From assembly GCF_018457165.1 (NCBI RefSeq), contig NZ_JAFMNX010000001.1, positions 868,001-932,000 of the forward strand: a DNA stretch of 64,000 nt, written 5' to 3'. Of the stretch, positions 1,280 to 19,298 are shown piece after piece. Both the position numbers and the translations under genes were made by a program. The notes below the pieces were generated by a model. That model saw only the letters and a program-made list of their open reading frames with translations. It did no database searches and was not told the DNA's origin. Source of the stretch: Tianweitania aestuarii. GTDB taxonomy: Bacteria; Pseudomonadota; Alphaproteobacteria; Rhizobiales; Rhizobiaceae. Position 1 is the first letter of the stretch, and the number at the start of each line of letters is the position of its first letter.

Positions 1280-3427
1280 TCAAAGAGCGGACAGCTTGCC
1301 GCTGGCCGAGACCTGAGCCGGCGCCGCGCCCGAGAAGGCGGCTTCGATTTCGGCCAGAACCCGTGTCGTGTCGGGCGACAGAATGCGCGGGGGTTCGCCG
1401 ATCGTGCTGTCGCCGGCCGATGATGCGATGCTGGCGATCGCCTGGTCGTCGGCGGGCTTGTCGATGAACGGCTTCTCAAGGCCGGGGATCGGTTTCACTT
1501 CCACATTGCGATGCGCATAGGCCATCAGGCGCTGCCAGACCATGGCGGGCAGGGAGCCGCCGGTCATCTCGTTGGAGGAGGTGAAGTCGTCATTGCCGAG
1601 CCAGACGGCGGCGAGATAGTTGCCGGTGAAGCCGACATACCAGGCGTCGCGATAAGCCTGCGTCGTGCCCGACTTGCCGCCCGAACGAATGCCGGGCAGG
1701 GCGGCGCGCCGGCCGGTGCCGATTTCCGGAACCTGCGCGAGCATCGTGTTCATCGACGCGGTCGCCTGTTCGGACAGAACACGGTGCGGCGGCGGCGCGT
1801 CACGGTCGTGATCGTAGAACACCTTGCCGGAATGGTTGGACAGCTGCGTGATGCCGTGGCGCATGCCGGCATAACCACCATTGGCAAAGACCTCGTAGCC
1901 GGTTGCCTGATCCATCACGGTCATGCCGGATGTACCGAGCACCATCGTCTTGTGGCCTTCGAGCTTCGATTCCACGCCGAAGGATTCCGCCATCGCCTTG
2001 ATCGGCCCAATGCCGAGATGATCCTTGGCAAGACGCACGGGCACGGTGTTGATCGACTTCACCAGAGCGGTGGTCAGCGACATGCGGCCGTTGAAGGAAC
2101 GGGCGTAATTCTTCGGCGACCAGCCGTTCCAGTTGATCGGACCGTCGGACACGACGGAGTCGGGCTTGAAGCCGTGTTCCATGGCCGTGGCATAGACATA
2201 GGGCTTAAACGACGAGCCCGTCTGCCGCAGCGCCTTGGTGGCGCGGTTGAACTGCGACGTGCCGTAATCGCGACCGCCGACAATGGCGCGCACGGCGCCG
2301 TTGGTTTCGAGCATCACCAGCGCGCCCTGGTCGACACGGTACTGCTTGCCGTGCTGGCGCAGCATGAATTCGAGCGACTCTTCGGCCGCATGTTGCAGGT
2401 TCAGGTCGATCGTGGTGCGCGCGACCATGGAGCGGATGCCGTAGGGTTCGGCGATCTGCTTGGCCTGTTCGAACGCCCAGTCGAGGAAATAATCGGGGCT
2501 CTGGCGTTCGCCGCGATCCACCACGCTTGCCGGATGCAAACGCGCGGACAGGACTTGGCCTTCGGTGAGGAAGCCGCCCTGAACGAGATTGCTCAGCACC
2601 TCGTTGGCGCGACCGCGCGCGGCCGGCAAATTGATGTGCGGCGCGTATTTGGCGGGCGCCTTGAACAGGCCGGCCAGCATCGCGGCTTCCGACAGGTTGA
2701 GGTCCTTCACCGACTTGCCGAAATAGAAATCCGCCGCAGCCGTGATGCCGAAGGTACCGCCGCCCATGTAGCCGCGGTCGAGATAGAGCTGGAGGATCTC
2801 CTTCTTGGAAAGGTTGGTTTCCAGCCAGATCGCGAGAAAGGCTTCCTTGATCTTGCGATCGAAGGTGCGCTCGTTGGTCAGAAACAGGTTCTTGGCGAGC
2901 TGTTGCGTCAGCGTCGAGCCGCCCTGCACCACGCCGTTGGCGCGCATGTTTTCGCTCATGGCGCGGGCGAGGCCGAGAAAATCGATGCCCCAATGGCTGA
3001 AGAAGCGGCGATCCTCGGTGGCAAGCAGCGCCTGGATCACGTGATCGGGCATCTCGTCCACGGGCACGGAATCGCGCTGGATGATGCCGCGCTGGCCGAT
3101 TTCGTTGCCGAAGCGATCGAGAAAGGTGACGGCGAAATCGCCCTGATTGCGCCAATCGGTCTTGGTTTCCTCGAAAGCGGGCATGGCGAGCGCCAGCATC
3201 ACCACGGCGCCGGCCGCGCCAAAGGTGAAGCCTTCGGACGCGATCTCGACCAGACCGCGCCGCCAGCCGCGCACGCGAAAGCGGCGTGAAAAGATGGTGA
3301 CGTTTTCCCAGCCGCGAGCGAGATGAAACCGCGCCTCGTAAACGGTGGAATCGAGCCACGCATCTGCCGCAAGCATTGCGGCAGACAGGCGACCGCGATT
3401 TCCGCGGGGTTTGTTTGGCTCATCCAT
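1280..3427 (-). CDS. Bifunctional class A penicillin-binding protein (transglycosylase/transpeptidase)
   Basis: It polymerises and cross-links peptidoglycan at the periplasmic face of the inner membrane. With the ATG at 3427 it is 715 aa: a cytoplasmic N-terminus, one membrane segment (about 67-84), a GT51 glycosyltransferase domain with catalytic Glu in TEDRRFFSH (E138) and the GGSTLTQQLAKNLF motif, then a transpeptidase domain. The transpeptidase motifs are all visible: SxxK as SSFK (S405), SxN as SIN in LVKSINTVPV, and KTG-type as KSGTT. The frame stays open up to 3697, but the upstream residues look non-coding (Cys- and His-rich), so the MDEPNKPRG start is preferred. It diverges from the GTA cluster. 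Confidence 0.9.
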   Translation of the reverse strand: MDEPNKPRGNRGRLSAAMLAADAWLDSTVYEARFHLARGWENVTIFSRRFRVRGWRRGLVEIASEGFTFGAAGAVVMLALAMPAFEETKTDWRNQGDFAVTFLDRFGNEIGQRGIIQRDSVPVDEMPDHVIQALLATEDRRFFSHWGIDFLGLARAMSENMRANGVVQGGSTLTQQLAKNLFLTNERTFDRKIKEAFLAIWLETNLSKKEILQLYLDRGYMGGGTFGITAAADFYFGKSVKDLNLSEAAMLAGLFKAPAKYAPHINLPAARGRANEVLSNLVQGGFLTEGQVLSARLHPASVVDRGERQSPDYFLDWAFEQAKQIAEPYGIRSMVARTTIDLNLQHAAEESLEFMLRQHGKQYRVDQGALVMLETNGAVRAIVGGRDYGTSQFNRATKALRQTGSSFKPYVYATAMEHGFKPDSVVSDGPINWNGWSPKNYARSFNGRMSLTTALVKSINTVPVRLAKDHLGIGPIKAMAESFGVESKLEGHKTMVLGTSGMTVMDQATGYEVFANGGYAGMRHGITQLSNHSGKVFYDHDRDAPPPHRVLSEQATASMNTMLAQVPEIGTGRRAALPGIRSGGKSGTTQAYRDAWYVGFTGNYLAAVWLGNDDFTSSNEMTGGSLPAMVWQRLMAYAHRNVEVKPIPGLEKPFIDKPADDQAIASIASSAGDSTIGEPPRILSPDTTRVLAEIEAAFSGAAPAQVSASGKLSAL

Positions 3428-3599
3428 GGCGACGTCCGGCAAGCTTTTCGACGCGATACAAACAGGTGCATGCAGGTCAGGCGCGTCCCTTCGCCCGGAC
3501 TTACGATGGCAGGCTTTCATGTCACACTTCAAGGAGAAACGGGACAGAGCAGCAGATCTACCTGAAAGGGATGAATCAACGATGATAGGAAAATAGTCC

Positions 3600-3628
3600 T
3601 TGACACCGTGACGGTGCTCGGGTAGGTT
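3600..3628 (+). promoter_or_regulatory. Putative sigma-70-type promoter of the GTA cluster
   Basis: A perfect TTGACA (3600-3605) is followed after exactly 17 bases by TAGGTT (3623-3628), about 93 bases before the first GTA gene. The spacer begins with the small inverted repeat CACCG-TGA-CGGTG (3604-3616), which overlaps the -35 box and could bind a regulator. The -10 box is a weak match. This is an assignment by pattern only. Confidence 0.45.
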
Positions 3629-3720
3629 TCCCTTATCGTCACACAGTTGCGACCAAGGCGGGCGGCGCGCTCGATGCCTGGCAGTGTGGCACGACACTCA
3701 AGACACGTGGATGGATTTTC

Positions 3721-4191
3721 ATGGGAGCAAAGGCCGAGAAGGTCTGGGCTGCCCTTCGTGCGCTTTACGAAGGGGAGACGGTGGGGTTTGGCCTGTTGGC
3801 GCAAGTGGCTGAAATGAATGAAGTCCGGCTCCAATGCCGGGCGGAGCGGGAAGGTTGGATCGAGGGTGGCGCCTTGGCGGTCCAGCGCAAGCAGAAGGGC
3901 CGTCTGCTGAAATCGATCGAAAAGCTGGAAGGTCAGGTCGACCTTCTGATCGAAGGCAGTGCCGAGAACGAGGGGAGGATCGACAAAGCCAAGCTCGACC
4001 TTCTGAACCTGCTTCTGCGCTCGGTCGAGAAGCTGAAGGAGATGCTGCCGTCCGAACCGGAAAAGGCAAAACTGAGGGTCAGGGATCGAGATGTCCGCGT
4101 TTCAAAAATATTGCAGCATCTCGATGGACGAATTTCAGAGCTCGCTCGGCATTTCGCTGCCGCGATGGTCGAAGCGGATCGGAGCAAGTGA
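3721..4191 (+). CDS. GTA small terminase-like protein (g1)
   Basis: This 156-aa, highly charged and largely helical protein is the first gene of the GTA operon, where g1 encodes the small terminase subunit that regulates packaging. An N-terminal stretch (KVWAALRALYEGETVGFGLLAQVAEMNE) looks like a helix-turn-helix used by rhizobial g1 homologues. The middle (about 60-120) is coiled-coil-like, rich in Lys, Glu and Leu. In RcGTA the small terminase lacks sequence-specific DNA recognition, which underlies random packaging; that is family knowledge and not visible here. The ribosome binding site is weak. The 3' end overlaps the terminase gene by 101 bases if the terminase starts at 4091. Confidence 0.7.
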   Translation: MGAKAEKVWAALRALYEGETVGFGLLAQVAEMNEVRLQCRAEREGWIEGGALAVQRKQKGRLLKSIEKLEGQVDLLIEGSAENEGRIDKAKLDLLNLLLRSVEKLKEMLPSEPEKAKLRVRDRDVRVSKILQHLDGRISELARHFAAAMVEADRSK

Positions 4192-5437
4192 CGCAAGCCT
4201 GATCGCGGCCGAATGGGTGATGACCGCCCGGCCGCAGCAATATCCGCTGTTCGACGACAAGCCCGACACCTGGCTGGTGATCGGCGGGCGGGGGTCGGGC
4301 AAGACGCGATTGGGCGCAGAATGGGTGAATGCGATGGTGCGGGGCTTCCCGCCCTTCGCGGAGCTTGGCGACCGGCACGGACAGATCGCGCTGGTGGGGG
4401 AAACGCTGGGCGATGTGCGCGAGGTGATGATCGACGGGCCGTCCGGTCTGGTGACGATCGCCCGGCATGACCGGCCGCGCTTCGAAGCCACGCGGCGCAG
4501 GCTCGTTTGGGACAACGGCGCGGTGGCGCAGATCTTTTCGTCCGAGGATCCGGAAAGTCTTCGCGGACCGCAGTTCGCGGCGGCCTGGTGCGATGAAGTC
4601 GCCAAATGGAAGAACGCCGATGCGGTGTTCGACATGCTGCAGTTCGGGCTTCGATTGGGCAATCGGCCGCGGCAGATTTTGACCACGACGCCGAAGCCGA
4701 CGCCGCTGATGAAGCGGCTGCTTGCTGATCCCACGATCGCCGTGACGCGGATGAAAACGAGCGACAATGCCGACAATCTCGCGCCGAGCTTCATGGCCAC
4801 GATGAACAGGCTTTATGGCGGCACGCGGCTGGGACGGCAGGAGCTGGAGGGCGAGCTGATCGAAGATCGCGCCGATGCGCTTTGGACGCGCGCTCTGCTG
4901 GAAGGGGCGCGGCGGCCGGTTGGCGAGATCGGGCGCATCGTTGTGGCCGTCGATCCGCCGGCGGGTGGCCAGGGCAAGGGCAACCGCTGCGGCATCGTTG
5001 CGGCTGGCCTGGATGCCGAAGGGCATGCCGTGGTGCTGGCGGATGCGACGGTTTCGGGCGTCGGACCGAACCAGTGGGCGGCGGCGGTGGTGCAGCTTTA
5101 CGCCAAACTCGACGCGGATTGCATCGTGGCGGAAGTAAACCAGGGCGGCGCGATGGTGGAAAGCGTGCTGCGCGCGGTGGATGCTGATGTGCCGGTCAAG
5201 CCGGTGCGCGCCAAACGGGGCAAGTGGCTGCGGGCCGAACCGGTCGCGGCGCTTTATGCGCAGGGTCGCGTGATCCATGCGGAGCGCTTTCCCGAACTGG
5301 AAGACGAAATGTGCGACTTCGGCGCGGATGGTTTGGCTGATGGCCGCTCGCCGGATCGGGTGGATGCGCTCGTCTGGGCGATCAGCGAACTGACCGCGGC
5401 CGAGAGTGCCGCGCCGCGCATCCGGCAGATGCGCTGA
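4091..5437 (+). CDS. GTA large terminase (g2)
   Basis: This is the ATP-driven packaging motor and headful nuclease. It has 448 aa: a Walker A motif GGRGSGKT (65-72), a Walker B-like stretch with catalytic acid in AAWCDEVAKW (D168-E169), and a C-terminal RNase H-like nuclease whose first acid is in VVAVDPPAGG (D288). Size and architecture match the DNA-packaging family of RcGTA g2. The ATG at 4091 follows a purine-rich stretch ending GGATCGAG and gives a 101-base overlap with g1. Later in-frame ATGs at 4124 and 4220 are possible; the last still keeps the whole ATPase domain. The true start is therefore uncertain, while the family assignment is secure. Confidence 0.92.
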   Translation: MSAFQKYCSISMDEFQSSLGISLPRWSKRIGASDASLIAAEWVMTARPQQYPLFDDKPDTWLVIGGRGSGKTRLGAEWVNAMVRGFPPFAELGDRHGQIALVGETLGDVREVMIDGPSGLVTIARHDRPRFEATRRRLVWDNGAVAQIFSSEDPESLRGPQFAAAWCDEVAKWKNADAVFDMLQFGLRLGNRPRQILTTTPKPTPLMKRLLADPTIAVTRMKTSDNADNLAPSFMATMNRLYGGTRLGRQELEGELIEDRADALWTRALLEGARRPVGEIGRIVVAVDPPAGGQGKGNRCGIVAAGLDAEGHAVVLADATVSGVGPNQWAAAVVQLYAKLDADCIVAEVNQGGAMVESVLRAVDADVPVKPVRAKRGKWLRAEPVAALYAQGRVIHAERFPELEDEMCDFGADGLADGRSPDRVDALVWAISELTAAESAAPRIRQMR

Positions 5438-5463
5438 CCTGAACTCAATAAAACAAGGCTGGG

Positions 5464-6621
5464 ATGATGAAGGCTTGGAACTGGCCGTGGCGGAGCGTGG
5501 CCGTAAGCCCCGAGCGCAAGGAGGCCGGCGGGATCGGCTTCGTGGCGCTGCATGGGCAAGCCGCCGCACACTGGACGCGGCGCGATTACGGAGCGCTGGC
5601 GCGCGAAGGTTACATGAAGAACCCGATCGTGCATCGCTCGGTGCGCATGATCGCGGAAGCGGCGGCGGCGGTGCCGTGGCTGCTGTATCAGGGCGTCACC
5701 GAGCATGACGCGCATCCGCTGCTGTCGCTTCTGGCGCGTCCGAACCGGCGCATGGCGGGTGCGGCCTTCATGGAGGGGCTGTACGGGCACCTGCTCTTGT
5801 CGGGCAATGCCTATATCGAGCTGGTGAGCGCGGGCGAGCGGCATGAGTTGCATCTCTTGCGGCCGGATCGAACGCGGGTGGCGACCGACGAACGTGGCTG
5901 GCCGGTGGCGCTTAACGTCGGCGAAGGGCGCGACAAGCGCTCCGTGCCGTTGGGGTCGGACGGGGCGCTGCAGCTGCAGCTGTTTCATCCCGTGGATGAT
6001 CATTACGGCTTCGCGCCCTTGGAGGCGGCATTGACGGCGCTCGATACGCATAATGCGGCGGGGCAGTGGAACAAGGCGCTGCTCGACAATTCGGCGCGGC
6101 CATCGGGTGCGCTGGTTTATGCGCCGAAAGAAGGCGGCAATCTCACCGACGAGCAGTTCGAGCGGCTGAAGGCGGAGCTGGAGGATGGCTATTCCGGTGC
6201 CAAGCGCGCCGGGCGTCCGCTGCTTCTGGAAGGCGGGCTCGACTGGAAGGCGATGGGCTATTCGCCCAAGGACATGGACTTCATCGAGGCCAAGAATGCC
6301 GCAAGCCGCGACATTGCGCTGGCCTTCGGGGTCCCGCCGATGCTGCTCGGGATCCCCGGCGACAACACCTATGCGAATTATCAGGAAGCCAACCGCGCCT
6401 TCTACCGCCTGACGGTGCTGCCGATGGTGGCGAAGACGGCGCGGGAGTTGTCGGCCTGGCTCGGGCCGACCTTTAGCGAAGGCTTGAGGCTCTGGTTCGA
6501 TGCCGACCAGATCGAGGGTCTGGCAGCCGAGCGCGAGGCGCTGTGGTCGCGGCTGAGTGCGGCGACGTTCCTGACCGACGACGAGAAACGCGAGGCGGTC
6601 GGTTATCGGCCGCTGGCCTGA
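5464..6621 (+). CDS. GTA portal protein, HK97 family (g3)
   Basis: This 385-aa protein would form the dodecameric ring through which DNA enters the capsid and to which the tail joins. The HK97-portal fold is recognisable from the N-terminal NPIVHRSVRMIAEAAAAVPW segment, the central GNAYIEL motif, and the C-terminal GVPPMLLGIPGDNTYANYQ stretch typical of this family. The start is one of two adjacent ATGs (5464 or 5467). It lies 26 bases after the terminase stop and 25 bases before the next gene, consistent with one operon. Confidence 0.93.
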   Translation: MMKAWNWPWRSVAVSPERKEAGGIGFVALHGQAAAHWTRRDYGALAREGYMKNPIVHRSVRMIAEAAAAVPWLLYQGVTEHDAHPLLSLLARPNRRMAGAAFMEGLYGHLLLSGNAYIELVSAGERHELHLLRPDRTRVATDERGWPVALNVGEGRDKRSVPLGSDGALQLQLFHPVDDHYGFAPLEAALTALDTHNAAGQWNKALLDNSARPSGALVYAPKEGGNLTDEQFERLKAELEDGYSGAKRAGRPLLLEGGLDWKAMGYSPKDMDFIEAKNAASRDIALAFGVPPMLLGIPGDNTYANYQEANRAFYRLTVLPMVAKTARELSAWLGPTFSEGLRLWFDADQIEGLAAEREALWSRLSAATFLTDDEKREAVGYRPLA

Positions 6622-6646
6622 AGAGCGGGCCTTAAGGACAATCATC

Positions 6647-6970
6647 ATGAATGATACGGCCATGATCTGGCTGGCGCGTGGGCTTGGTGCCGCGGCCGGC
6701 TCGGCGATTTCGCTCGCCTATATCCTGCCGCGCGGACGGCGCGAGGCGGCGGTGCGCTTTGCGGTGGGGCTCGTCAGCGGCGTCGTGTTCGGCGGCGGCG
6801 TGGGGCTGAAGATCGCCGGGGAACTTGGGCTCGGCGCCGATCTCGCGCAGTTCGAACTGATGCTGATGGGCTCGGCCGCTGCCAGCCTTTGCGCCTGGTG
6901 GGCGCTGGGCTTTTTGATGCGGCTGTTCGAGCGCGGCACCAAACCAACCAATACAAGCGAGGCGCAATGA
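6647..6970 (+). CDS. Small membrane protein between portal and protease (g3.5 position, DUF6107-like)
   Basis: The 107-aa protein has about three hydrophobic segments (roughly 5-27, 38-60 and 73-95) separated by short charged loops. It occupies the position of RcGTA g3.5 between portal and protease. Rhizobial proteins of this place and size are annotated as DUF6107; their role is unknown. Its stop overlaps the start of the prohead protease in an ATGA (6967-6970), so the two are translationally coupled. I infer a membrane role, perhaps in assembly or release, but nothing in the sequence proves it. Confidence 0.7.
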   Translation: MNDTAMIWLARGLGAAAGSAISLAYILPRGRREAAVRFAVGLVSGVVFGGGVGLKIAGELGLGADLAQFELMLMGSAAASLCAWWALGFLMRLFERGTKPTNTSEAQ

Positions 6971-7626
6971 GCGGGATCGAAACCAAGCGCGTGGCGCTCA
7001 GCGTGGAAGAGGTGGACGCCGAAGGCTCGTTCACCGGCTATGCCAGCCTGTTCGGCGCGCCGGACCTCGGCCGCGACATCGTGGAACGCGGGGCGTTCGC
7101 GAAGTCGCTGCGGGCGCGTGGGGCTTCTGGCGTGCGGATGCTGTTCCAGCACGATCCGGCGCAGCCGATCGGCGTGTGGACCGAGCTGCGCGAAGACGAG
7201 CGCGGGCTCTTTGTGCGCGGCCGGCTGCAGACCGAAGTGGCGCGGGGGCGCGAGATCCTGGCGCTGATGAAAGCGGGTGCGCTGGACGGTTTGTCGATCG
7301 GCTTTCGGGCCGTGAAGGCGCGCAAGGAAGCGGCGACCGGGTTCCGGCGCATTCTGGAAGCGGACCTCTGGGAAATTTCGGTGGTGACGTTTCCCATGCT
7401 GCCGGGCGCGCGCATCCGCCAGGTGAAGAGCGGAGCGCAAAGCCTTCCCACGGTCAGAGAATTCGAACGCTGGCTCACGCAGGATGCTGGGCTGTCGCGG
7501 GCGCAAGCCAAGCTGGTGATCGCCAAGGGCTTCGCCGAACTGAAGCGCGAGCGAGACGCCGCGCATGGAACTCCCATCGGCGTGGCGGACACGATCCGCG
7601 CCGCCGCAAACCTGTTTCAGATTTGA
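6967..7626 (+). CDS. GTA prohead protease, HK97 family (g4)
   Basis: With the ATG at 6967 (4-base overlap with the preceding gene) this is a 219-aa serine protease that matures the capsid. The herpesvirus-type catalytic His is in MLFQHDPAQPIG and the catalytic Ser in LDGLSIGF, and the EISVVTFPMLPGARI segment is characteristic of the family. The frame is also open upstream to 6889 inside the membrane-protein gene, but the coupled ATG is clearly better. The C-terminal 70 residues (DAGLSRAQAKLVIAKGF) lie outside the protease fold and may act as a scaffold-like extension. The capsid gene follows 9 bases later. Confidence 0.93.
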   Translation: MSGIETKRVALSVEEVDAEGSFTGYASLFGAPDLGRDIVERGAFAKSLRARGASGVRMLFQHDPAQPIGVWTELREDERGLFVRGRLQTEVARGREILALMKAGALDGLSIGFRAVKARKEAATGFRRILEADLWEISVVTFPMLPGARIRQVKSGAQSLPTVREFERWLTQDAGLSRAQAKLVIAKGFAELKRERDAAHGTPIGVADTIRAAANLFQI

Positions 7627-7635
7627 GGACAAGAC

Positions 7636-8901
7636 ATGCAGACCATGCAGAAGCCAACTATGACGGCTGGGCGTGCGCCGGAGATCAAGAGCGCCGGTTC
7701 CTATGACGTGAAGGGCGCGTTCGACGATTTCATGGGCGCCTTCGAGGCGTTCAAGGACGCTAACGACACCCGGCTCGGCGAGCTCGAAACGCGTATGACG
7801 GCCGACGTGCTGTCGACCGACAAGGTCGATCGCATTTCGAGGGCGCTCGATGATCAGAAGCGCAAGCTGGACGAGCTGCTTTTGAAGAAGGCCCGCCCGA
7901 CGCTGGGGCGCAGCATTGAGGTTGGCGCCAGCGAACACAAGGATGCGTTCGAGGCCTATGTGCGTTCGGGTGACGAGCGCGGCATCCGCTCCGTTGAAGC
8001 CAAGGCGATGAGCCTGGGCACTGGTTCCGACGGCGGCTATCTCGTGCCGCGCGAAACGGAAACGGAGATCGCCAAGCGGTTGGCGGTTCTGTCGCCGATC
8101 CGCTCGATTGCGTCGGTGCGCCAGGTGTCCACGGCGGTTCTGAAGAAGCCGTTCGCCTTGACCGGTCCGGCAACGGGCTGGGTGGGCGAAACGGCGGCGC
8201 GCACGCAGACCGCAAGCCCGACGCTGGCCGAACTCGAGTTTCCGGCGGCCGAGCTCTACGCCATGCCTTCCGCCACGCAGGCGCTTCTGGAAGACAGCGC
8301 GATGGATCTCGACACCTGGCTGTCGGACGAAATCGAGCTCGCCTTTGCCGAACAGGAAGGCACAGCTTTCGTCCTCGGCAACGGCGTCAACAAGCCGAAG
8401 GGCTTTCTCGCCTATGACAAGGTTGCGGATGCCAACTGGTCCTGGGGTTCGCTCGGCACGATCGCGACGGGTACGGCCGGTGCCTTTGCCGCGACCAACC
8501 CGGCCGACAAGCTCGTCGATCTCATCTACGCGCTGAAGGCAGGCTATCGCGAAAACGCGTCTTTCGTGATGAACCGCAAGACGCAGGCCGCCGTGCGCAA
8601 GATGAAGGACGGCGACGGCAATTACCTCTGGCAGCCGCCGGCGGCTGTCGGTCAGAAGGCCTCGCTGATGGGCTTCCCCGTAGTGGAAGCCGAGGACATG
8701 CCGGATATCGCGGCGGATTCGACGGCGATCGCCTTCGGTGACTTTGCCCGCGGCTATCTGATCGTCGACCGCACCGGCGTGCGCGTGCTGCGCGATCCGT
8801 ATTCCGCCAAGCCCTATGTCCTGTTCTACGTGACCAAGCGCGTCGGCGGCGGCGTGCAGGACTTCAGCGCGATCAAGCTCCTGAAGTTCGCGACGGCCTG
8901 A
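7636..8901 (+). CDS. GTA major capsid protein, HK97 family (g5)
   Basis: The 421-aa capsid precursor has an N-terminal helical delta/scaffold region (about 20-85, rich in Asp, Lys and Leu) followed by the HK97 core, which opens with the characteristic SLGTGSDGGYLVP segment. The neighbouring prohead protease probably removes the N-terminal region at a site before that segment, as in RcGTA and HK97; the exact site cannot be read here. The protein ends in a family-typical FYVTKRVGGGVQDFSAIKLL stretch. A strong terminator hairpin starts 28 bases after its stop, the only such signal inside the cluster. Confidence 0.95.
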   Translation: MQTMQKPTMTAGRAPEIKSAGSYDVKGAFDDFMGAFEAFKDANDTRLGELETRMTADVLSTDKVDRISRALDDQKRKLDELLLKKARPTLGRSIEVGASEHKDAFEAYVRSGDERGIRSVEAKAMSLGTGSDGGYLVPRETETEIAKRLAVLSPIRSIASVRQVSTAVLKKPFALTGPATGWVGETAARTQTASPTLAELEFPAAELYAMPSATQALLEDSAMDLDTWLSDEIELAFAEQEGTAFVLGNGVNKPKGFLAYDKVADANWSWGSLGTIATGTAGAFAATNPADKLVDLIYALKAGYRENASFVMNRKTQAAVRKMKDGDGNYLWQPPAAVGQKASLMGFPVVEAEDMPDIAADSTAIAFGDFARGYLIVDRTGVRVLRDPYSAKPYVLFYVTKRVGGGVQDFSAIKLLKFATA

Positions 8902-8926
8902 TCGGGCCGCGCCTGAAGAAACACAT

Positions 8927-8963
8927 GAGCCCCGGCATCATCTGCCGGGGTTCTTTTCTTTTC
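8927..8963 (+). terminator. Factor-independent terminator between capsid and connector genes
   Basis: A perfect 8-bp stem CCCCGGCA (8930-8937) and TGCCGGGG (8943-8950) has a 5-base loop. It extends to 11 bp with one G-U pair (8927-8929 with 8951-8953) and runs straight into TTCTTTTCTTTT. The signal sits in the 85-base gap between g5 and g6, in the middle of the structural operon. Partial read-through would give more capsid than tail protein. Confidence 0.85.
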
Positions 8964-8986
8964 CGCCAGTTGCTTGAGGGATTTTC

Positions 8987-9556
8987 ATGACTCTGTTTCG
9001 CACCGTCGAGCCGGCGGCCGAACCTGTAACCGTCGCCGATGTGAAGGCGCATCTGCGGCTCGATCACGCGAGCGAAGACGGGCTGATCGTCGACCTGATC
9101 CGGGCTGCGCGCGAAGAGGTGGAGCAGGCCACGGGCTGCGCGCTGATCGAGCAAAGCTGGCGGCTGACACTCGATCGCTGGCCCCAATCCAACCGCGTGC
9201 TCATCCACAAACATCCGGTGAAGCAGATCCTGTCGGTGACGATCTATGGCCGCGAAGGTGGTGCGGCGATCGTGGATCCGGCGATCATGCTGCTGGATGG
9301 TCGGTCGCGGCCGGCGCGGCTGCATTTTGACCAAGCACCGCAGCCGGGGCGGGCGATGAATGGGATCGAGGTGGATTTCACGGCGGGCTTCGGTCCGGCC
9401 GGAACGGATGTGCCGGATCTTCTCAAGCGCGCCGTGATCATGCTGGCGAGCCACTGGTTCGAGTTTCGCGCGGTGTTGTCTGCGAGGGATCAGCCGGCGT
9501 CTTACCCCAAGGGTTATGAGCGGCTGATCGGGCCGTATCGATCGCGGAGGCTCTAG
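8987..9556 (+). CDS. GTA head-tail connector protein (g6)
   Basis: This 189-aa protein belongs to the gp6-type connector family that binds below the portal. It shows the typical N-terminus PVTVADVKAHLRLDHASEDG, a long helix of the LIRAAREEVEQATG type, and a C-terminal helix LLKRAVIMLASHWFEFR, all standard for this fold. It is the first gene after the internal terminator, with a GAGGG ribosome binding site about 7 bases before the ATG. Its TAG is immediately followed by the ATG of the next gene. Confidence 0.88.
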   Translation: MTLFRTVEPAAEPVTVADVKAHLRLDHASEDGLIVDLIRAAREEVEQATGCALIEQSWRLTLDRWPQSNRVLIHKHPVKQILSVTIYGREGGAAIVDPAIMLLDGRSRPARLHFDQAPQPGRAMNGIEVDFTAGFGPAGTDVPDLLKRAVIMLASHWFEFRAVLSARDQPASYPKGYERLIGPYRSRRL

Positions 9557-9889
9557 ATGGTGGATTTCATTGGGCCGGGAAGCCTGCGCACGGAACTGGC
9601 GCTGGAAGACGTGACGCTGACGCAAGACGGCGCAGGTGGGCATGTGGAGACCTGGGCGGAGGTGGCGACGGTGTTTGCGCGGCTGGAGCCGGTGCGGGCC
9701 GACGCTCGCTTTGCCGGCGATCAGACGCTGGAAAGCGTGACGCATCGCGTGACGCTGCGGTTTCGAGACACGGTGAAGAGCGGCATGCGCTTTCGATGGG
9801 GCGAGCGGGTGTTCGCGATCCAGACCGTTCATGATCCGGATGAAACCCGTCGCTACCTTCTTTGTCGAACGCGGGAACAGGGCCGATGA
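9557..9889 (+). CDS. GTA head-closure (stopper) protein (g7)
   Basis: The 110-aa, beta-rich protein matches the phage head-tail adaptor family (HK97 gp10/SPP1 gp16 type), which caps the connector. Family-like features are the N-terminal LRTELALEDVTLTQDGAGGH segment, the W-EVATVFARLEPV strand and the HRVTLRFRDTVKSGMRFRW segment, followed by a segment on converting the measured value (ERVFAIQTVHDPDE). It starts directly at the connector stop and its own TGA overlaps the next ATG (9886-9889), so it is tightly coupled on both sides. Confidence 0.85.
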   Translation: MVDFIGPGSLRTELALEDVTLTQDGAGGHVETWAEVATVFARLEPVRADARFAGDQTLESVTHRVTLRFRDTVKSGMRFRWGERVFAIQTVHDPDETRRYLLCRTREQGR

Positions 9890-10068
9890 AGGTGGATTTT
9901 GCCCTGACGCTGGATGGCATGCTGCGCGCCTTGCGCACCAGACTGCATCATGTGCAGGATGAACTTCAATGGAACGGGCGAGAAGATGCAGTGGCGGGTC
10001 GCGCAAACACGAGGCGCGATCGTTCGATCGAGATGAGGGAGGAGCGCGATGGCAGCCGCGGCGGTTGA
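9886..10068 (+). CDS. Unrecognised 60-aa ORF between stopper and tail terminator genes
   Basis: An ATGA overlap with g7 starts this frame, which ends 20 bases inside g8, so it bridges the two genes without a gap. The product begins MKVDFALTLDGMLRALRTRL and is very basic in its second half (GRANTRRDRSIEMREERDG). No family is recognised and RcGTA has no named gene at this exact place. The GGGAGGAG ribosome binding site of g8 lies inside its 3' end. It may be a real small assembly factor, or only a leader frame that carries ribosomes across the gap to g8. Confidence 0.5.
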   Translation: MKVDFALTLDGMLRALRTRLHHVQDELQWNGREDAVAGRANTRRDRSIEMREERDGSRGG

Positions 10069-10456
10069 ACTGCAAAGGGCTATCTTTGCTGCCCTGAAGG
10101 GGGATGCTGACGTGACCGCGCTTGTGGGCGAGCGCATCCACGACCATCCGCCGGCCAAGATCCGCTTTCCTTATCTCACCTTCGGGCGCTCCAACTCCTA
10201 TGACTGGAGCACGGGCACGGAGATCGGCACCGAGCATCTGTTTTCGATCCATGTCTGGTCGAAGGCCACCGGCAAGACCGAGGTGCTGGAGCTGATGGGC
10301 CATATCGAAGCGCTGTTGCGCGAAGGCGCCTTCGACCTGGGCGAGCACCATCTGGTGAACATGACGCCGAGCTTTGCCGAAACGCGCTTCGATGAAGACC
10401 AGGCGCTGCATCATGGGCTGTTGCGGTATCGCGCCGTGACCGAGCCGGCGGCCTAG
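10049..10456 (+). CDS. GTA tail terminator protein, DUF3168 (g8)
   Basis: This 135-aa protein matches DUF3168, the tail-completion/terminator family that caps the tail tube at its head-proximal end. Typical elements are the N-terminal ELQRAIFAALKGDADVTALV helix, the RFPYLTFGRSNSYDW strand, the EHLFSIHVWSKATGKTEV segment and the C-terminal LRYRAVTEP strand. A strong GGGAGGAG lies about 6 bases before the ATG, inside the small upstream ORF, so g8 has its own good initiation signal besides possible coupling. Confidence 0.88.
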   Translation: MAAAAVELQRAIFAALKGDADVTALVGERIHDHPPAKIRFPYLTFGRSNSYDWSTGTEIGTEHLFSIHVWSKATGKTEVLELMGHIEALLREGAFDLGEHHLVNMTPSFAETRFDEDQALHHGLLRYRAVTEPAA

Positions 10457-10490
10457 CCCTCAATCTAACGCACAATCTGGAGACTGTTTC

Positions 10491-10901
10491 ATGGGTGCTC
10501 AACGGGGCAGGGATCTGCTTGTCAAAATGGATGCGGGAGGCGGCAGCTTCACCACGGTGGCGGGGCTGCGCACCAAGCGGCTCGCCTTCAACAGCGAAAC
10601 GGTGGATGTGACCGACTCGGACTCGGCCGGACGCTGGCGCGAGCTGCTGGCGGCCGCTGGTGTGCAGCGGGCGTCGGTGAGTGGTGCGGGCATCTTCAAG
10701 GATGCGGCTTCGGATGCGGCGATGCGCGCGGCGTTCTTTTCGGGCGCGATCGGGCGCTGGCAGTTCCTGGTGCCGGACTTCGGCACCGTCGAAGGGCCGT
10801 TTCAGATCACCGCGCTGGAATATTCCGGCGCGCATGACGGCGAAGTGACCTTCGAGGTTTCGCTGGAATCGGCCGGCGCTGTCGGGTTCTCAGGCCTATG
10901 A
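10491..10901 (+). CDS. GTA major tail tube protein (g9)
   Basis: The 136-aa protein is of the TP901-1 major tail family and would stack as hexamers to form the tail tube. Diagnostic features are the N-terminal GAQRGRDLLVKMDAGGG strand, the ETVDVTDSDSAGRWRELL segment with the loop between strands, and the VSGAGIFKDAASDAAMR segment. It starts 34 bases after g8 and its TGA overlaps the g10 start (ATGA at 10898-10901). The length matches other GTA tail tube proteins. Confidence 0.9.
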   Translation: MGAQRGRDLLVKMDAGGGSFTTVAGLRTKRLAFNSETVDVTDSDSAGRWRELLAAAGVQRASVSGAGIFKDAASDAAMRAAFFSGAIGRWQFLVPDFGTVEGPFQITALEYSGAHDGEVTFEVSLESAGAVGFSGL

Positions 10902-11224
10902 GCGTGAACCGGCGACGCGGCGAAGTGGCCGCCGTTCTGGACGGGCGCGAGTATCGGCTGTGTCTCACGCTTGGCGCGCTGGCCGAACTCGAACATGCCT
11001 TTGCGGCGGATGATCTCGGTGCGCTGGTGCAGCGCTTTTCCGGTGGAACGCTGTCGGCCGGCGACATGATCGCGGTGATCGGCGCGGGTTTGCGCGGTGG
11101 CGGCAACGATGTGGCGGATGGTGCCGTCCGCAGCATGACGGCCGACGGCGGCGTGGCCGGCTTCGCGCAGATCGTCAGCGATCTCCTGCAGGCGACGTTC
11201 GGAGCGCCTTCGCCAAACCCTTGA
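10898..11224 (+). CDS. GTA tail assembly chaperone-like protein (g10)
   Basis: The 108-aa protein matches the GTA-specific g10 family, thought to be a tail assembly chaperone that coats the tape measure protein. It starts with a beta hairpin (GEVAAVLDGREYRLCLTLGA) and continues as the LAELEHAFAADDLGALVQRF helix typical of this family. It is coupled on both sides: ATGA with the tail tube gene, and TTGA (11221-11224) with g10.1. In phages two chaperone forms often come from one frameshifted gene; here they are two overlapping genes. Confidence 0.85.
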   Translation: MSVNRRRGEVAAVLDGREYRLCLTLGALAELEHAFAADDLGALVQRFSGGTLSAGDMIAVIGAGLRGGGNDVADGAVRSMTADGGVAGFAQIVSDLLQATFGAPSPNP

Positions 11225-11454
11225 AGGCCGCAGCAGGTGGGGGTGCGCAGCAAAGTGCTGCCTTTCCGTGGGACCAGGCGATGGCGCTTGGTTTCGGCCT
11301 GCTGCGGCTTGCACCCAGCCAGTTCTGGGCGATGACGCCGATCGAATTGGCAGTGGCGATCAAACCGCTGTTTCCTGCCGGCGGCGAGCCGCTTGGGCGG
11401 GCCGACTTTGACCGGCTGATGCAGCAATTCCCCGATGGAGGATCTTATGGCTGA
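11221..11454 (+). CDS. GTA second tail chaperone (g10.1, rcc01693-type)
   Basis: The 77-aa protein carries the FPWDQAMALGFGLLRLAP and FWAMTPIELAVAI motifs of the small rcc01693-like phage tail assembly chaperone family. The only start that keeps the conserved FPW motif is TTG at 11221, overlapping the g10 stop as TTGA; the first in-frame ATG (11281) would cut the motif off. Expression therefore seems to depend on ribosomes terminating at g10. The gene ends 8 bases inside g11, whose ribosome binding site it contains. Confidence 0.82.
   Translation: MKAAAGGGAQQSAAFPWDQAMALGFGLLRLAPSQFWAMTPIELAVAIKPLFPAGGEPLGRADFDRLMQQFPDGGSYG
11437..11441 (+). promoter_or_regulatory. Ribosome binding site fixing the g11 start
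   Basis: A consensus GGAGG lies 5 bases before the ATG at 11447. An in-frame ATG at 11435 overlaps this signal and has no good site of its own, so 11447 is taken as the start of the tape measure protein. Confidence 0.75.
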
Positions 11455-11992
11455 TGATGTTTCAATCCGCATCGAGGCGGATGCGGCGCCGTTTCTCCAG
11501 ACGCTCGACCAGCTGCGCACGCTGTCGCAAGGTTTCGGGCGCGACCTGACCGGAGCGCTGAAAAGTGCGGCGGTGAGCGGCAAGTCGCTGGACGATATTC
11601 TGAGGCGGATGGGCTCGAACATGGCGGGCCGGGCCTTGTCGGCAGGCCTGGCCCCGTTGAGCCAGCTGACCGGCTCGTTGATGTCGAACATTCTTGGCGG
11701 ACTGATGGGCGGCGTGACGCCGTTTGCCAAGGAGGGCGTGGTGTCGACGCCGTCTTACTTCCCGATGGCTGGTGGCACCGGGCTGATGGGCGAGGCGGGG
11801 GCGGAAGCGATCCTGCCGTTGGCGCGCGGCTCGGACGGGCGGCTGGGCGTCGCATCCGGCGGCGGGGGATCGGCGCCGGTGAACATCACCTTCAATGTGA
11901 CAACAAGCGATGCGGCCTCGTTCCGCAAATCGGAAGCGCAGATCACCGGCATGCTGGCGCAGGCCGTGTCGCGCGGCGCACGCGGACGTTAA
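11447..11992 (+). CDS. GTA short tape measure protein (g11)
   Basis: This 181-aa protein occupies the tape measure position. It has an N-terminal amphipathic, coiled-coil-like part (VSIRIEADAAPFLQTLDQLR), a central Gly- and Met-rich hydrophobic stretch (about 80-100), then a segment common at the C-terminus of tape measures (FAKEGVVSTPSYFPMAGG and GEAGAEAILPLARG) and a final beta strand region. It is short even for a GTA; the R. capsulatus protein is about 220 aa. The start at 11447 is set by a consensus GGAGG. Confidence 0.85.
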   Translation: MADDVSIRIEADAAPFLQTLDQLRTLSQGFGRDLTGALKSAAVSGKSLDDILRRMGSNMAGRALSAGLAPLSQLTGSLMSNILGGLMGGVTPFAKEGVVSTPSYFPMAGGTGLMGEAGAEAILPLARGSDGRLGVASGGGGSAPVNITFNVTTSDAASFRKSEAQITGMLAQAVSRGARGR

Positions 11993-12004
11993 TCAGGAGC
12001 GGAA

Positions 12005-12637
12005 ATGGCTGAGTTTCATGACGTGCTGTTTCCCGCAGCCGTGTCTTTCGGTGCGACTGGGGGACCGGAACGGCGGGTCGAAATCGTACAGATGACGTCG
12101 GGCAAGGAGCAGCGCAATGCCAGGCTGCGCCATTCGCGCAGGCACTACGATGCGGGTACCGGCGTGCGCTCGCTCGGTGACCTCTACGAAATCATGGACT
12201 TCTTCGAAGCGCGGCGAGGATCGCTGCACGGGTTCCGCTTTCGCGATCCCTTCGACATGAAATCGTGCCGGCCGGATGGGGTGATCGGGGCGCGGGATCA
12301 GCGGATCGGCACCGGTGATGGTGTCGTGAAGGCGTTCCAACTGGCGAAGACCTATGGGGCTGGCGAGGACGCTTATGTCAGGCCGATCCGCAAGGTGTTG
12401 GCGGGCAGTGTGCGCGTGGCAGTGGCGGGTGGTGAGCTCGCTGCGAACCGGTTTGCGGTGGACTGGGCTACGGGCCTGGTGACGCTCGTCCAAGCGCCGG
12501 CTGCGGCTGCTGCGGTGACGGCCGGCTTCGAGTTTCATGTGCCGGTGCGCTTCGACACCGAGCGCATCGCCATCAGTCTGACCGCATTCAAGGCCGGGCA
12601 GATCCCTTCCATTCCCCTGATCGAGGTGAGCGCATGA
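12005..12637 (+). CDS. GTA distal tail protein, DUF2460 (g12)
   Basis: The 210-aa protein belongs to the DUF2460 family, which forms the distal tail ring linking tube and baseplate. Visible family features are the N-terminal FHDVLFPAAVSFGATGGPER, the RHYDAGTGVRSLGDLYEIMD segment, the FRFRDPFDMKSC motif and the C-terminal FEFHVPVRFDTERI. An AGGAG lies 6 bases before the ATG. The end overlaps g13 by 4 bases (ATGA at 12634-12637). Confidence 0.92.
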   Translation: MAEFHDVLFPAAVSFGATGGPERRVEIVQMTSGKEQRNARLRHSRRHYDAGTGVRSLGDLYEIMDFFEARRGSLHGFRFRDPFDMKSCRPDGVIGARDQRIGTGDGVVKAFQLAKTYGAGEDAYVRPIRKVLAGSVRVAVAGGELAANRFAVDWATGLVTLVQAPAAAAAVTAGFEFHVPVRFDTERIAISLTAFKAGQIPSIPLIEVSA

Positions 12638-13521
12638 ATGTGAGCGACGAGTTTCGTGTCCATCTCGGAGGCGCCACGACGACGCTGTGCCATTGCTGGC
12701 GCGTCACCCGGCGCGACGGGTGGGTGGCAGGCTATACCGATCATGACGAGCGGCTCGTGGTGGACGGCACGGTGTTTCAGCCGGAAACCGGGTTCTCGGC
12801 CAGCGAAGCGCGCGACCGCTTGGGCCTGAGCACGGATACGGTGGACATCGACGGTGCCCTGTCTTCGCTCGACATTTCGGACGAGGAGATCGCGGCGGGC
12901 GCGTTTGACAGGGCGGGGGTGGAAACGCTGCTGGTGAACTGGAGCGATCCCGACCAGTGGACGCTGCTGCGCAAGGCGGTGATCGGCAAGATCACGAGGC
13001 AGGACGGTCAGTTCACGGCGGAACTGCTCAGCCCGACGGAAAGCCTCGACCGTGTGAACGGGCGATACATTCGCCGGGAATGCGATGCGGTGCTGGGGGA
13101 TCAGCGCTGCAAGGTCGCGCTGGATCGGCCGGGCTTTCACGCCAGTGGTGTCGTGCTGGAGGTCGAGGGGCGCGATGCCGTGCTGGTTTCCAGGCTGGAT
13201 GATGCGGAGGCCGGCTGGTTTTCGCACGGGCGGCTGTTCTGGACATCGGGCGCCAATGCGGGGCGAACGGAGCAGGTTCTGGATCATGCGCGCAGGCTGG
13301 ACGGGGTGCGGCTCGTGCTTTGGCGCGACGGCACGATCGTTTCGGCACCGGGCGATGCGTTCACGGTGGAAGTAGGCTGCGACAAGCTGTTTGCGACCTG
13401 CAAGGCGAAGTTCGGCAACAGCGCGAACTTCCGCGGCTTTCCGCATCTGCCGGGCAATGATGCCGCTTACGGCTATGTCACGGACGGCGTCACCTTCGAC
13501 GGCGCACCGATCGTGCCATGA
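12634..13521 (+). CDS. GTA tail hub protein, DUF2163 (g13)
   Basis: The 295-aa protein has an N-terminal DUF2163 domain and a C-terminal phage BR0599-type domain. Recognisable pieces are LCHCWRVTRRDGWVAGYTDH near the N-terminus and the Cys-containing C-terminus (EVGCDKLFATCKAKFGN). RcGTA g13 is a baseplate hub component that binds an iron-sulfur cluster through cysteines. This protein has Cys residues in YIRRECDAVLGDQRCKV and VGCDKLFATCKAKF, which is compatible with such a cluster (inference). Both ends overlap neighbours by 4 bases. Confidence 0.9.
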   Translation: MNVSDEFRVHLGGATTTLCHCWRVTRRDGWVAGYTDHDERLVVDGTVFQPETGFSASEARDRLGLSTDTVDIDGALSSLDISDEEIAAGAFDRAGVETLLVNWSDPDQWTLLRKAVIGKITRQDGQFTAELLSPTESLDRVNGRYIRRECDAVLGDQRCKVALDRPGFHASGVVLEVEGRDAVLVSRLDDAEAGWFSHGRLFWTSGANAGRTEQVLDHARRLDGVRLVLWRDGTIVSAPGDAFTVEVGCDKLFATCKAKFGNSANFRGFPHLPGNDAAYGYVTDGVTFDGAPIVP

Positions 13522-13949
13522 GTGCTGATCGAATTGTGGCCGAAGCGATGACATGGCTCGGCACGCCCTACCGGCATCAGGGGCGAAGGCGGGGCGTCGG
13601 GTGCGATTGCCTGGGGCTCATCATGGGTGTTTGGGACAGGGTTTACGGCAACATTCCCGAACAGCCGGGTGCTTATGCGGCGGACTGGGCGGAAGCTGGC
13701 GGGGGTGATCCGCTGCTGGAAGCCGCGCGACGGCAATGCCGGGAGAAGCCGGTCGGTGAGATGGCGGCGGGCGATCTGATCCTGTTTCGATGGCGTCCGG
13801 ATCTGCCGGCCAAGCATTGCGCGATCGCGGTCGGCGGAACCCGCATGATCCATGCCTATGAAGGCCATGCGGTTCTTCTTTCGCCGCTCGGCTCACACTG
13901 GAAGCGCCGCATCGCCGGCGTGTTTGTTTTTCCCGAACTGAAACACTGA
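13518..13949 (+). CDS. GTA cell-wall peptidase, NlpC/P60 family (g14)
   Basis: The 143-aa protein is an NlpC/P60 cysteine peptidase that would cut peptidoglycan cross-links at the tip of the tail during DNA entry. The catalytic Cys is in GVGCDCLGLIMG and the His in LPAKHCAIAVGG, followed by the IHAYEGHAVLLSPL strand. It starts with a 4-base overlap with g13 and lies 7 bases before the tip protein gene, the same order as in R. capsulatus. It is not a lysis endolysin; that gene is normally elsewhere. Confidence 0.92.
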   Translation: MSADRIVAEAMTWLGTPYRHQGRRRGVGCDCLGLIMGVWDRVYGNIPEQPGAYAADWAEAGGGDPLLEAARRQCREKPVGEMAAGDLILFRWRPDLPAKHCAIAVGGTRMIHAYEGHAVLLSPLGSHWKRRIAGVFVFPELKH

Positions 13950-13956
13950 GGTTTCG

Positions 13957-16900
13957 ATGGCGACGATCGTTTTGCAGGCGGCCGGGGCGTTTCTCGGCGG
14001 CATGCTGGGGCCTGTCGGCGCGGTGGTGGGCCGCGCGGCCGGTGCCTTGGCGGGCTATGCCGTGGATCAGGCCGTCATCAACGGCACGCGGCGTCTGGAA
14101 GGTCCGCGCCTCAACGATCCGCGCCCGTTCACGGCGGAAGACGGAGCTGCGCTGCCGCGTATCTATGGCAGCGTGCGGGTGAACGGGACGCTGATCTGGG
14201 CGACGCGGTTCGAGGAAGAAACGACGTCCGAACGCGCTGGCGCCAAGGGCGGGCCGAAGGTCACCAGCTACACCTATTTCGCCAATCTGGCTTTCGCCCT
14301 GTGTGAAGGGCCGATCGCGGGTGTTCGGCGGATCTGGGCGGATGGACGCGAGCTCGACCAGACACGCTATGAGATCCGCTGGTATCGTGGCGATGAGGCG
14401 CAGGAGCCCGATCATCTGATCGAGGCAAGGCAGGGCGCGAACAATGCGCCGTCTTATCGCGGCACGGCCTATGTGGTGTTCGAGCGCTTTCCGCTCGCCG
14501 ACTACGGCAATCGCGTGCCGCAGTTTTCCTTCGAGGTGATGCGGCCGGTCGGGGGATTGAGCGCCAATATCCGGGCGGTGACGCTGATCCCCGGCTCGAC
14601 GGAATATGGCCTTTCGCCATCCTTGGTGACGCTGAAGCATCGACCGGGTGAAACGGAAGCGCTCAACCGGCATGTGCTGCATGCCGGAAGCGATCTGGTA
14701 GCGGCACTCGATGAGCTGCAGGCACTGTGCCCGAAGCTCGAACATATCGGGCTGGTGGCGACTTGGTTCGGCAATGATCTGCGCGCGGGTGATTGCACCA
14801 TTCGGCCGATGGTGACGCAGAAAACGGCGGGCGGGCAATCACAGCCGTGGCGCGTGTCGGGCCTGGACCGAGCCGACGCGGCGGTCGTGTCGCGCCATGA
14901 CGGGCGTGCGGCTTATGGCGGTGCGCCGTCCGATCGGTCGGTCATTGAGGCCATTCGCGAGATCAAGGCGCGCGGGCTGAAGGTGACGCTTTATCCGTTC
15001 ATCATGATGGATGTGCCCGAAGGCAATGCGCTGCCGAACCCATGGGGTGGGGCGGGTCAGCCGGCCTATCCCTGGCGCGGGCGGATCACTTGTCATCCCG
15101 CGCCTGACCAGGCGGGAACGGCGCAGGGCAGTGCGGCGGCAGGCGTGCAGATCGCGACCTTTGTGGGAGAAGCGGCACGCGGGGCATTCCGGACGGAGAA
15201 GGACACGATCCGCTTTACCGGGCCGGCGGACGAATGGAGCTATCGCCGCTTTCTGCTGCATTTCGCGCATCTGGCGAAGGCGGCGGGCGGGGTGGAGGCG
15301 TTTCTGATCGGCTCGGAACTGCGCGGGCTGAGTTGCGTGCGCGATGGGTCGGGCGCGTTTCCCTTTGTTCATGCCTTGATGCGGCTGGCGGAAGATGTGC
15401 GGGCGATCCTCGGGGCGGACACCAAGATCAGCTATGGCGCGGACTGGAGCGAGTATTTCGGGCACCAACCGGCGGGCACCGGTGACATCCTCTTTAACCT
15501 CGACCCGCTTTGGGCACATCCGGCGATCGATGCGATCGGCATCGACAATTACATGCCGCTGTCGGACTGGCGCGATGCGGATGCCAGCGGTGGCAATCCG
15601 GATGGGTTCGGCAGCGCCTATGATCCCGATGGGTTGCGCAGCCAGATCGCGGGCGGCGAGGGGTATGACTGGTATTATGCCAGCCTGGATGATCGGCATC
15701 AGCGCAAGCGCACGCCGATCACCGATGGCGGTTACAACAAGCCGTGGGTGTATCGCTTCAAGGATCTCCGCAACTGGTGGGCGAATCCGCATCGTGATCG
15801 CGTGGGCGGTGTCGAGGTGCGGCAGGCAACGGGTTGGGTGCCTTGCTCGAAACCGATCTGGTTCACGGAGCTCGGTTGTTCGGCAGCCGACAAGGGGCCG
15901 AACCAGCCGAATGTGTTTCCTGATCCGAAATCGACGGAAAATGGTCTGCCTTATTATTCGACCGGAGGGCGGTCCGATGTGGCGCAGCAGAACTTCCTCC
16001 AGGCACATCAGGCGCATTGGGACCCGGATGTCGCGGGCTTCCGCGAGGCCGACAATCCCCTTTCGCCGCTTTATGGCGGGCGGATGGTGGATGCGGAACG
16101 CGTTTATCTCTGGGCCTGGGATGCCCGGCCCTTTCCGGCCTTTCCCCAGCGCGGCGATGTTTGGGCCGATGGCAACAACTGGCTGCTCGGGCATTGGCTG
16201 AACGGGCGGTTGAATGCCGTGACGGTGGCCGATCTGGTCAGCGCGATCCTGGCCGATCATGGTTTGCCGGCGGCGGATGTGGCGGGCGTGGATGGGTCGG
16301 TGCACGGCTTCATCGTGGAAGAGCCGGGCACGGCCCGGGCAGCGCTTGAGCCGATCGTCAACCTGTTCGGTTTGGGCGCGCGCGACGATGGCGAGCGCCT
16401 GCGTTTTGGCGGCACAAGCACGGCGGCAGCGGTTGATGTCACCGACTTCGTACTTGAGGACGGCGGCGCAATCCTGGAAACGAGCCGTGTGCCGGATGGC
16501 GAATTGCCGACGGAACTGACGCTCGCATTTCGCGATCCGTTCGCCGATTATCAGGCTGCAACGGTGCGCAGCATTGATCCGCGCGAAACGGAAACACGGC
16601 AGCAGGCGCTGGCAATGCCGGTCGTGCTGGAACCGGCGAGTGCGGCGGCGCTGGCGGCGGATCGGTTGCGCGATTTCTGGGCCGGGCGGGAAGAGGTGGC
16701 GTTTGCCGTTCAAAGCGGCGCGGTGGATCTTCAGCCGGGAACGGTGATCCGGCTGCCGGACACCAAGCCGGGGATCGAGTACCTCGTGACCAGCGCCGAA
16801 ACGGGCGCGAAGCGCAGCCTGCGCGCCAAGCAGATCCGGCGTGTGCCGGCGTCGCCGTGGCGGGTGCAGAAGCCGGTCGAAACGGTGATCACACAACCGG

Positions 16901-17847: not shown

Positions 17848-17870
17848 TGAACAAAGCAAAGGAGTTTGTA

Positions 17871-18077
17871 ATGGAAAGCTCGAAACCCTGGTATCTCTCG
17901 CGTACGGTTTGGGCGTCGCTGGTCACGGTTGCCGCGGCGGCTGGTGGTTTGATGGGCATGTCGATCGGGTCATCCGATCAGGCTCTGATGACGGAAGCGC
18001 TGCTGCAGATCGTGACGGCGGTGGGTGGTGTGATCGCGGTGCTGGGCCGCTTGTCGGCAACCGAGAAAATCGGCTAG
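17871..18077 (+). CDS. Small two-span membrane protein, holin-like
   Basis: The 68-aa product has two hydrophobic segments (about 13-30 and 44-60) joined by a short polar loop, with a charged end SATEKIG. Its opening KPWYLSRTVWASLV and closing GRLSATEKIG resemble small proteins often found near the lysis or tail-end modules of proteobacterial prophages. The AAAGGAG 7 bases before the ATG at 17871 favours this start over an in-frame ATG at 17847. It lies 23 bases after g15 and is probably co-transcribed. In R. capsulatus the GTA holin is unlinked, so a linked one would be notable. A holin role is inferred from topology and place. Confidence 0.6.
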   Translation: MESSKPWYLSRTVWASLVTVAAAAGGLMGMSIGSSDQALMTEALLQIVTAVGGVIAVLGRLSATEKIG

Positions 18078-18311
18078 GCGCGTTTCTGGATTTGGCACTG
18101 ACCAATCGGGGTGGTGAGGGTCGAAGGGCAACGGAAACGTTCATGACGCGTTCAGCCCTCCTGCGATAGGTTCAACGAAACTGGAGTGAAAGATGGCGGT
18201 GAACCGAGGCGAGAAGGTCCTTTTTCCGGATCGATTGCCGGGCAAAAAGCCTTTGCCAAATCGACTGCCGTCTTTGCTCCAACCATGAACTGCTTTTCCT
18301 CGACGGGAACC

Positions 18312-19288: not shown

Positions 19289-19298
19289 TCGCTCGACC

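Follow-up and report, generated by a model that had tools for sequence, protein, structure and literature searches.

A conserved terminator-type hairpin directly after the capsid gene of the GTA cluster of Tianweitania aestuarii

Gene transfer agents (GTAs) are domesticated phages that carry host DNA from one bacterium to another. Their genes are read from one promoter, yet about 145 capsid subunits are needed for 1–6 copies of several tail proteins. In the RcGTA particle, g5 is present in 145 copies and g12–g15 in 1–6 copies each (PMC9765227). How can a single operon serve such unequal demands? The question is raised by a 64,000-nucleotide stretch of Tianweitania aestuarii DNA (hereafter the window), in which an earlier note had placed an intrinsic terminator inside a GTA operon, directly after the capsid gene. 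The operon had been correctly recognized. Profiles matched the portal, capsid, connector, distal tail, hub and megatron genes, and the HK97-type portal and capsid, the Rcc01695-family protein and the GTA hub and megatron matches mark the genes as a GTA structural cluster (Table 1). Its g7–g15 region encodes head-closure and tail-tube proteins, an Rcc01695-family distal tail protein, the GTA baseplate hub, an NlpC peptidase and, up to its end at 17847, the GTA megatron.

Table 1 Coordinates of the GTA cluster and post-capsid hairpin in the window, with examples of the Rhodobacteraceae RNA
Feature	Position	Strand	Basis
g2 terminase, g3 portal, g3.5 and g4 protease, upstream of the hairpin and co-directional	4091–7626	+	
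Terminase	4091–5437	+	
Portal	5464–6621	+	
Protease	6967–7626	+	
g5 major capsid protein, HK97 type	7636–8901	+	Pfam PF05065, 8.5e-96; TIGR01554, 6.3e-126
5′ arm of predicted terminator stem, GAGCCCCGGCA	8927–8937	+	sequence, pattern scan, folding
Hairpin loop, TCATC (UCAUC in RNA)	8938–8942	+	sequence, folding
3′ arm of predicted terminator stem, TGCCGGGGTTC	8943–8953	+	sequence, scan, folding; T. populi and T. sediminis preserve the pairing
U-rich tail, TTTTCTTTTC	8954–8963	+	T-rich in all three Tianweitania species; enriched across family
Probable Shine-Dalgarno of g6, GAGG	8976–8979	+	sequence; GAGGG kept in genus
g6 head-tail connector, first gene past hairpin	8987–9556	+	TIGR02215, 5.4e-67
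g7–g15, head-completion, tail and baseplate genes downstream of hairpin	9557–17847	+	
Rhodobacteraceae RNA, locus L262	2589–2666		model R1
Rhodobacteraceae RNA, locus L141	9910–9991	−	model R1
Rhodobacteraceae RNA, A1, A3 and A5			model R1

The predicted hairpin (8927–8953) begins 25 nt past the g5 stop codon and consists of 11 pairs, eight of them G–C and one G–U, closed by a 5-nt loop. Folding gave −21.2 kcal/mol (z = −5.8), and none of 200 shuffles was equally stable (0/200). Directly 3′ of the stem lies the tail TTTTCTTTTC, with 8 T of 10, and the g6 ATG follows 33 nt after the hairpin end, the whole g5–g6 gap being 85 nt. The earlier note had described a GC stem of 8–11 bp with a T-rich tract; the stem is 11 bp exactly, and the tract is there but interrupted by C. 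With its tight loop and T-rich tail, the window element has the textbook form of a terminator, and we identify it, as predicted from sequence and comparison, as a real and evolutionarily maintained intrinsic (Rho-independent) terminator-type hairpin. The gap that holds it had been called the only sizeable one in the cluster, which is true once small ORFs in g7–g8 and g10–g11 are counted. A 60-aa ORF at 9886–10068 overlaps the end of g7 and occupies the apparent g7–g8 gap; the g10–g11 gap is occupied by a g10.1-like small ORF at 11202–11446.

Terminator-like sites were at chance level overall in an 18-kb pattern scan, with 17 found against 14.1 ± 4.3 expected; the g5–g6 site was the sole 11-pair match. 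On the + strand of the GTA cluster, no second match had a short stem-loop and a comparable tail, and the remaining top matches in the cluster were long imperfect hairpins with 5 T in 8. Hairpins with ΔG ≤ −20 and at least 7 T in 8 occurred four times in 464 kb of the Tianweitania genome, both strands included, a density at which 0.0004 would be expected per 85 nt. An Rfam 15 search of window positions 3000–19000 (E ≤ 1) matched no family, and 14 relatives gave only sub-threshold chance matches; assignment of the post-capsid hairpins to a known RNA family was accordingly rejected.

Is the element maintained in relatives? A capsid match was present in 114 of the 151 Rhizobiaceae genomes, and 80 fetched clusters plus the window made up the family comparison set of 81. 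A g5–g6 gap of 71–905 bp with a strong hairpin was found in 81/81 of these clusters, and it was the sole gap always present without a small-ORF explanation. Strict terminators (ΔG ≤ −12 with at least 5 T of 8) occurred in 38/79 g5–g6 gaps, in 13/75 g8–g9 gaps, in only 9/61 g10–g11 gaps despite a median length there of 208 bp, and elsewhere at 0–9%. Among 76 named Hyphomicrobiales loci, including Mesorhizobium, Rhizobium, Shinella, Nitratireductor, Aurantimonas and Phyllobacterium, a hairpin of −15 kcal/mol or better was present in 76/76 and a strict terminator in 33/76. Conservation in related clusters, the check that the earlier note had itself proposed, came out in its favor, with these counts joined by a covarying stem and a U-tract signature. 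Across 35 relatives, compensatory changes affected 9/9 stem pairs, with 92.5% paired (shuffles, 0/500; slid controls, 37–57%), and the family hairpins had a mean z of −2.5 against dinucleotide shuffles of their own gaps. In 49 hairpins, the 10 nt past the stem contained 4.76 T compared to 1.93 elsewhere in the gap, and at least 5 T of 10 were found in 53% compared to 2.6% elsewhere; the enrichment drops after +9. No A-tract was seen upstream of the stem in family hairpins (A 20%), indicating that the terminator signature is one-directional with the operon. The stem and T-tract are also preserved in the congeners T. populi and T. sediminis; the pre-stem sequence of T. sediminis is divergent. 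About half of the Rhizobiaceae members have a poor U-tract despite the constant hairpin.

C-rich loops (UUCCCUCCC, CUCCUCC) were found in 24/81 Rhizobiaceae post-capsid hairpins compared to 3.2 expected in shuffles. C-rich-loop gaps include L033, L034, L038–L042, L045, L049, L052, L059, L064, L068, L074 and L090. These loops are anti-Shine-Dalgarno-like, and Tianweitania has none. A possible link of C-rich (CCUCC) loops to cuckoo RNA was considered; the window loop is UCAUC, and Rfam matched no family. Enlarged g5–g6 gaps of up to 905 bp (L036, L044, L046, L065 and L096) harbor extra palindromes that resemble dispersed intergenic repeats.

A post-capsid gap of 41–73 nt with one strong hairpin was also present in 7/7 inspected phages with homologous capsids (Bcep176, ST64B, SfII, the Pseudomonas phages D14E and VW-6S, a Desulfofustis phage and ctuI7215), which are not mutually independent. 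Given a hairpin at the equivalent place in these related phages, the post-capsid hairpin was probably inherited from a phage ancestor. The HK97-type phages Bcep176, ST64B, SfII, D14E and VW-6S resemble the window in their homologous capsid and strong hairpin; unlike the window they have mostly weak U-tracts, although the Bcep176 hairpin has a U-rich tail. The wider class was patchy. A hairpin of −15 or better lay within 150 nt in 18 of the 25 complete clusters, four with a U-tail, a count that is weaker than the family covariation because −15 hairpins are not rare in such G+C-rich DNA. Clusters L129, L137, L113 and L115 have gaps of only 6–35 nt and no hairpin, indicating that the hairpin is inessential to GTAs in general; in several short-gap clusters an extra gene following the capsid gene accounts for its absence. 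In L113, L115, L117, L123 and L147, from other alphaproteobacterial families, this extra gene lies 12–35 nt past the capsid gene and the hairpin is missing. The product of the extra gene begins M-R/Q-D-L-….

In Rhodobacteraceae, the site after the capsid gene is occupied by a different element, a structured RNA about 79 nt long that is apparently undescribed. A first hairpin, which lacks a U-tract, is followed by an outer stem of 10–11 bp, an asymmetric internal loop, an inner stem of 9 bp and a loop, CUAGCUGCUCCCCUCCGUCCGAG, that is nearly invariant. RNAalifold gave 27 pairs with compensatory changes in 22. In 58 distinct IMG/VR sequences, taken from loci other than the records that built covariance model R1, 96.7% of cells pair and 18/22 pairs have double changes (0/500 shuffles), in an alignment that was fitted to R1. 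The model matched 76 of 150 sampled Rhodobacteraceae genera, with a single match per genome save one genome with two; for 75/77 matches a listed capsid match lay 35–83 nt upstream, and the coordinates of one further match place it likewise. R1 had no matches in 288 other genomes of the class, and none in the window or in the scanned Rhizobiaceae clusters. Since the model finds nothing there, the Rhizobiaceae hairpin and the Rhodobacteraceae RNA are treated as analogous, and a homologous relationship was rejected. Rfam 15 contained no match for the RNA. It is carried by the locus nearest RcGTA (93% capsid identity), and most sampled Rhodobacteraceae genera without the R1 RNA have a plain hairpin past the capsid gene. 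In two such loci, L495 and L277, the plain hairpin is followed by a pyrimidine-rich tail and is window-like. At least 120 IMG/VR contigs, most of them GTA clusters catalogued as viruses, contain the exact loop 21-mer GCTGCTCCCCTCCGTCCGAGC; many "viral" contigs of about 14 kb (L283, L285, L287, L288 and others) are Rhodobacteraceae GTA clusters that the 21-mer marks.

If transcription terminates after g5, how would g6–g15 be expressed? A consensus promoter scan of the + strand of 2000–20000, the g5–g6 gap included, found none. In the family, the hairpin end precedes g6 by a median of 30 nt, which hold the U-tract and ribosome site, so that no promoter fits in between. With no consensus match and no room, a promoter in the gap was rejected, and g6–g15 would be reached by read-through only, unless a non-consensus promoter lies inside g6 or beyond. 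By analogy with Caulobacter, the likely source of read-through at the hairpin is a gafYZ-like pair about 11 kb upstream of the GTA cluster (G000:C1; L281:782–1989), in which a DnaA-C HTH ORF (PF08299) and a DUF6456 ORF (PF20057) overlap by 4 nt. We liken these ORFs to gafA/gafYZ because they have the same make-up; gafA is listed as a DUF6456 protein. GafZ, the processive anti-terminator of the Caulobacter GTA, appears to travel with the polymerase and lets part of it past terGTA and rrnB T1; bypass is incomplete, and terGTA still lowers expression about 8-fold with GafYZ present (PMC11150451). The Caulobacter crescentus system is similar to the window in having a terminator inside a homologous GTA cluster and GafY/GafZ-like genes in the genome. 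However, read-through is partial in Caulobacter crescentus and a prediction in the window, and terGTA consists of three 150-bp GC-rich repeats after gtaT whereas the window element is one short hairpin that follows g5. The earlier note had remarked that a control point at this place is not usually listed for GTAs. This is consistent with the open-access literature searched, which yielded no description of an element following a GTA capsid gene; the internal terminators of the Caulobacter GTA sit after gtaT, its first gene (PMC11150451).

From the computed hairpin, U-tract, position, conservation, covariation and gafYZ-like genes, we infer, with somewhat better than even confidence, an intrinsic and leaky terminator that is partly anti-terminated by GafZ-type action and favors capsid mRNA over tail mRNA. 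A share of polymerases would stop at the g5–g6 hairpin, yielding capsid mRNAs that carry a stable hairpin at the 3′ end, and the remainder would continue into g6–g15. In the GTA-on state, the GafY/GafZ-like pair would probably raise the read-through share; with the GTA off, the hairpin would also keep leaky transcription out of the tail genes. The net outcome would be more capsid mRNA than tail mRNA, matching the RcGTA copy numbers. That partial termination would set this ratio had been proposed in the earlier note, an interpretation that is plausible and gains from the comparison. In phage T7, a partial terminator inside the structural operon, Tphi, immediately follows capsid gene 10 and yields an excess of capsid mRNA. 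Like the window hairpin, Tphi comes right after the major capsid gene in a co-directional operon; it acts on phage RNA polymerase, whereas the window hairpin would act on host polymerase, probably with a GafZ-type anti-terminator, and no homology is claimed. RcGTA g5 also has higher codon adaptation (PMC9765227), itself a documented way of obtaining more capsid, and transcription may thus not be the only contributor.

The same excess could arise after transcription. If the transcript were cleaved within the gap and its hairpin then blocked 3′–5′ exonucleases, the capsid segment would outlive the tail segment and the U-tract would be secondary. We regard this account of the element as the main rival, although an unlikely one; it has a precedent in the puf operon of Rhodobacter, where an intercistronic hairpin separates cistrons needing very different protein amounts and acts via segmental mRNA stability. 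The window hairpin is likewise between cistrons of one operon and adds a terminator-typical U-tract. Consistent with protection, the stem is universal (81/81 and 76/76) and the U-tract is not. Poor U-tracts in about half of the family count against pure termination, which does not predict them, and the Rhodobacteraceae element, which is built of stems but lacks a U-tract, counts against termination as the shared function. Because of the many weak U-tracts and this RNA, 3′-end protection or processing of mRNA could be what post-capsid elements have in common. For RcGTA, where transcript abundance is uneven within a single primary transcript, "segmental differences in mRNA stability" were suggested (PMC3423380). 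However, T enrichment exactly behind the stem is unneeded for protection, and the window element has the textbook form of a terminator, 8 T in 10.

Clearly less probable than protection is a role as an off-switch only, in which stray transcription is blocked, GafYZ-modified polymerase passes fully and the capsid:tail ratio is unaffected. GafZ-type anti-termination does exist in GTAs, and gafYZ-like genes are present in the window's genome. Yet bypass in Caulobacter is incomplete, with the roughly 8-fold effect of terGTA persisting in the presence of GafYZ (PMC11150451), and a guard terminator would be expected ahead of the first structural genes rather than past the capsid gene. That the hairpin has no function, as a chance palindrome or palindromic repeat in a tolerant gap, strikes us as very improbable: repeat-like palindromes do occur in the enlarged gaps of some relatives (L036 and L044), but covariation, constant presence, closeness to g6, the U-tract and the 0.0004 expected by genome density all argue against it.

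Returning to the leaky, partly anti-terminated terminator that we favor for Tianweitania, we put the chances only slightly above even that the post-capsid gap is a dedicated, phage-inherited RNA control point of alphaproteobacterial GTAs. It would hold a terminator hairpin in Rhizobiaceae and, in Rhodobacteraceae, a structured RNA that would tune capsid versus tail by mRNA processing or stability, or by a CUCCG loop that masks the g6 CGGAG ribosome site. The Shine-Dalgarno GGAG is nearly without variation, and covariation is therefore uninformative on its pairing with the loop. The Rhodobacteraceae RNA indicates that this site matters in GTAs well beyond Tianweitania, and, as Rhodobacteraceae is the family of the model RcGTA producer, the question is testable in the best studied GTA system. 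The conserved element at the capsid/tail boundary is a concrete, deletable candidate cause of uneven transcripts. If GafZ-type anti-termination sets read-through, the GTA on-switch and particle stoichiometry would be linked.
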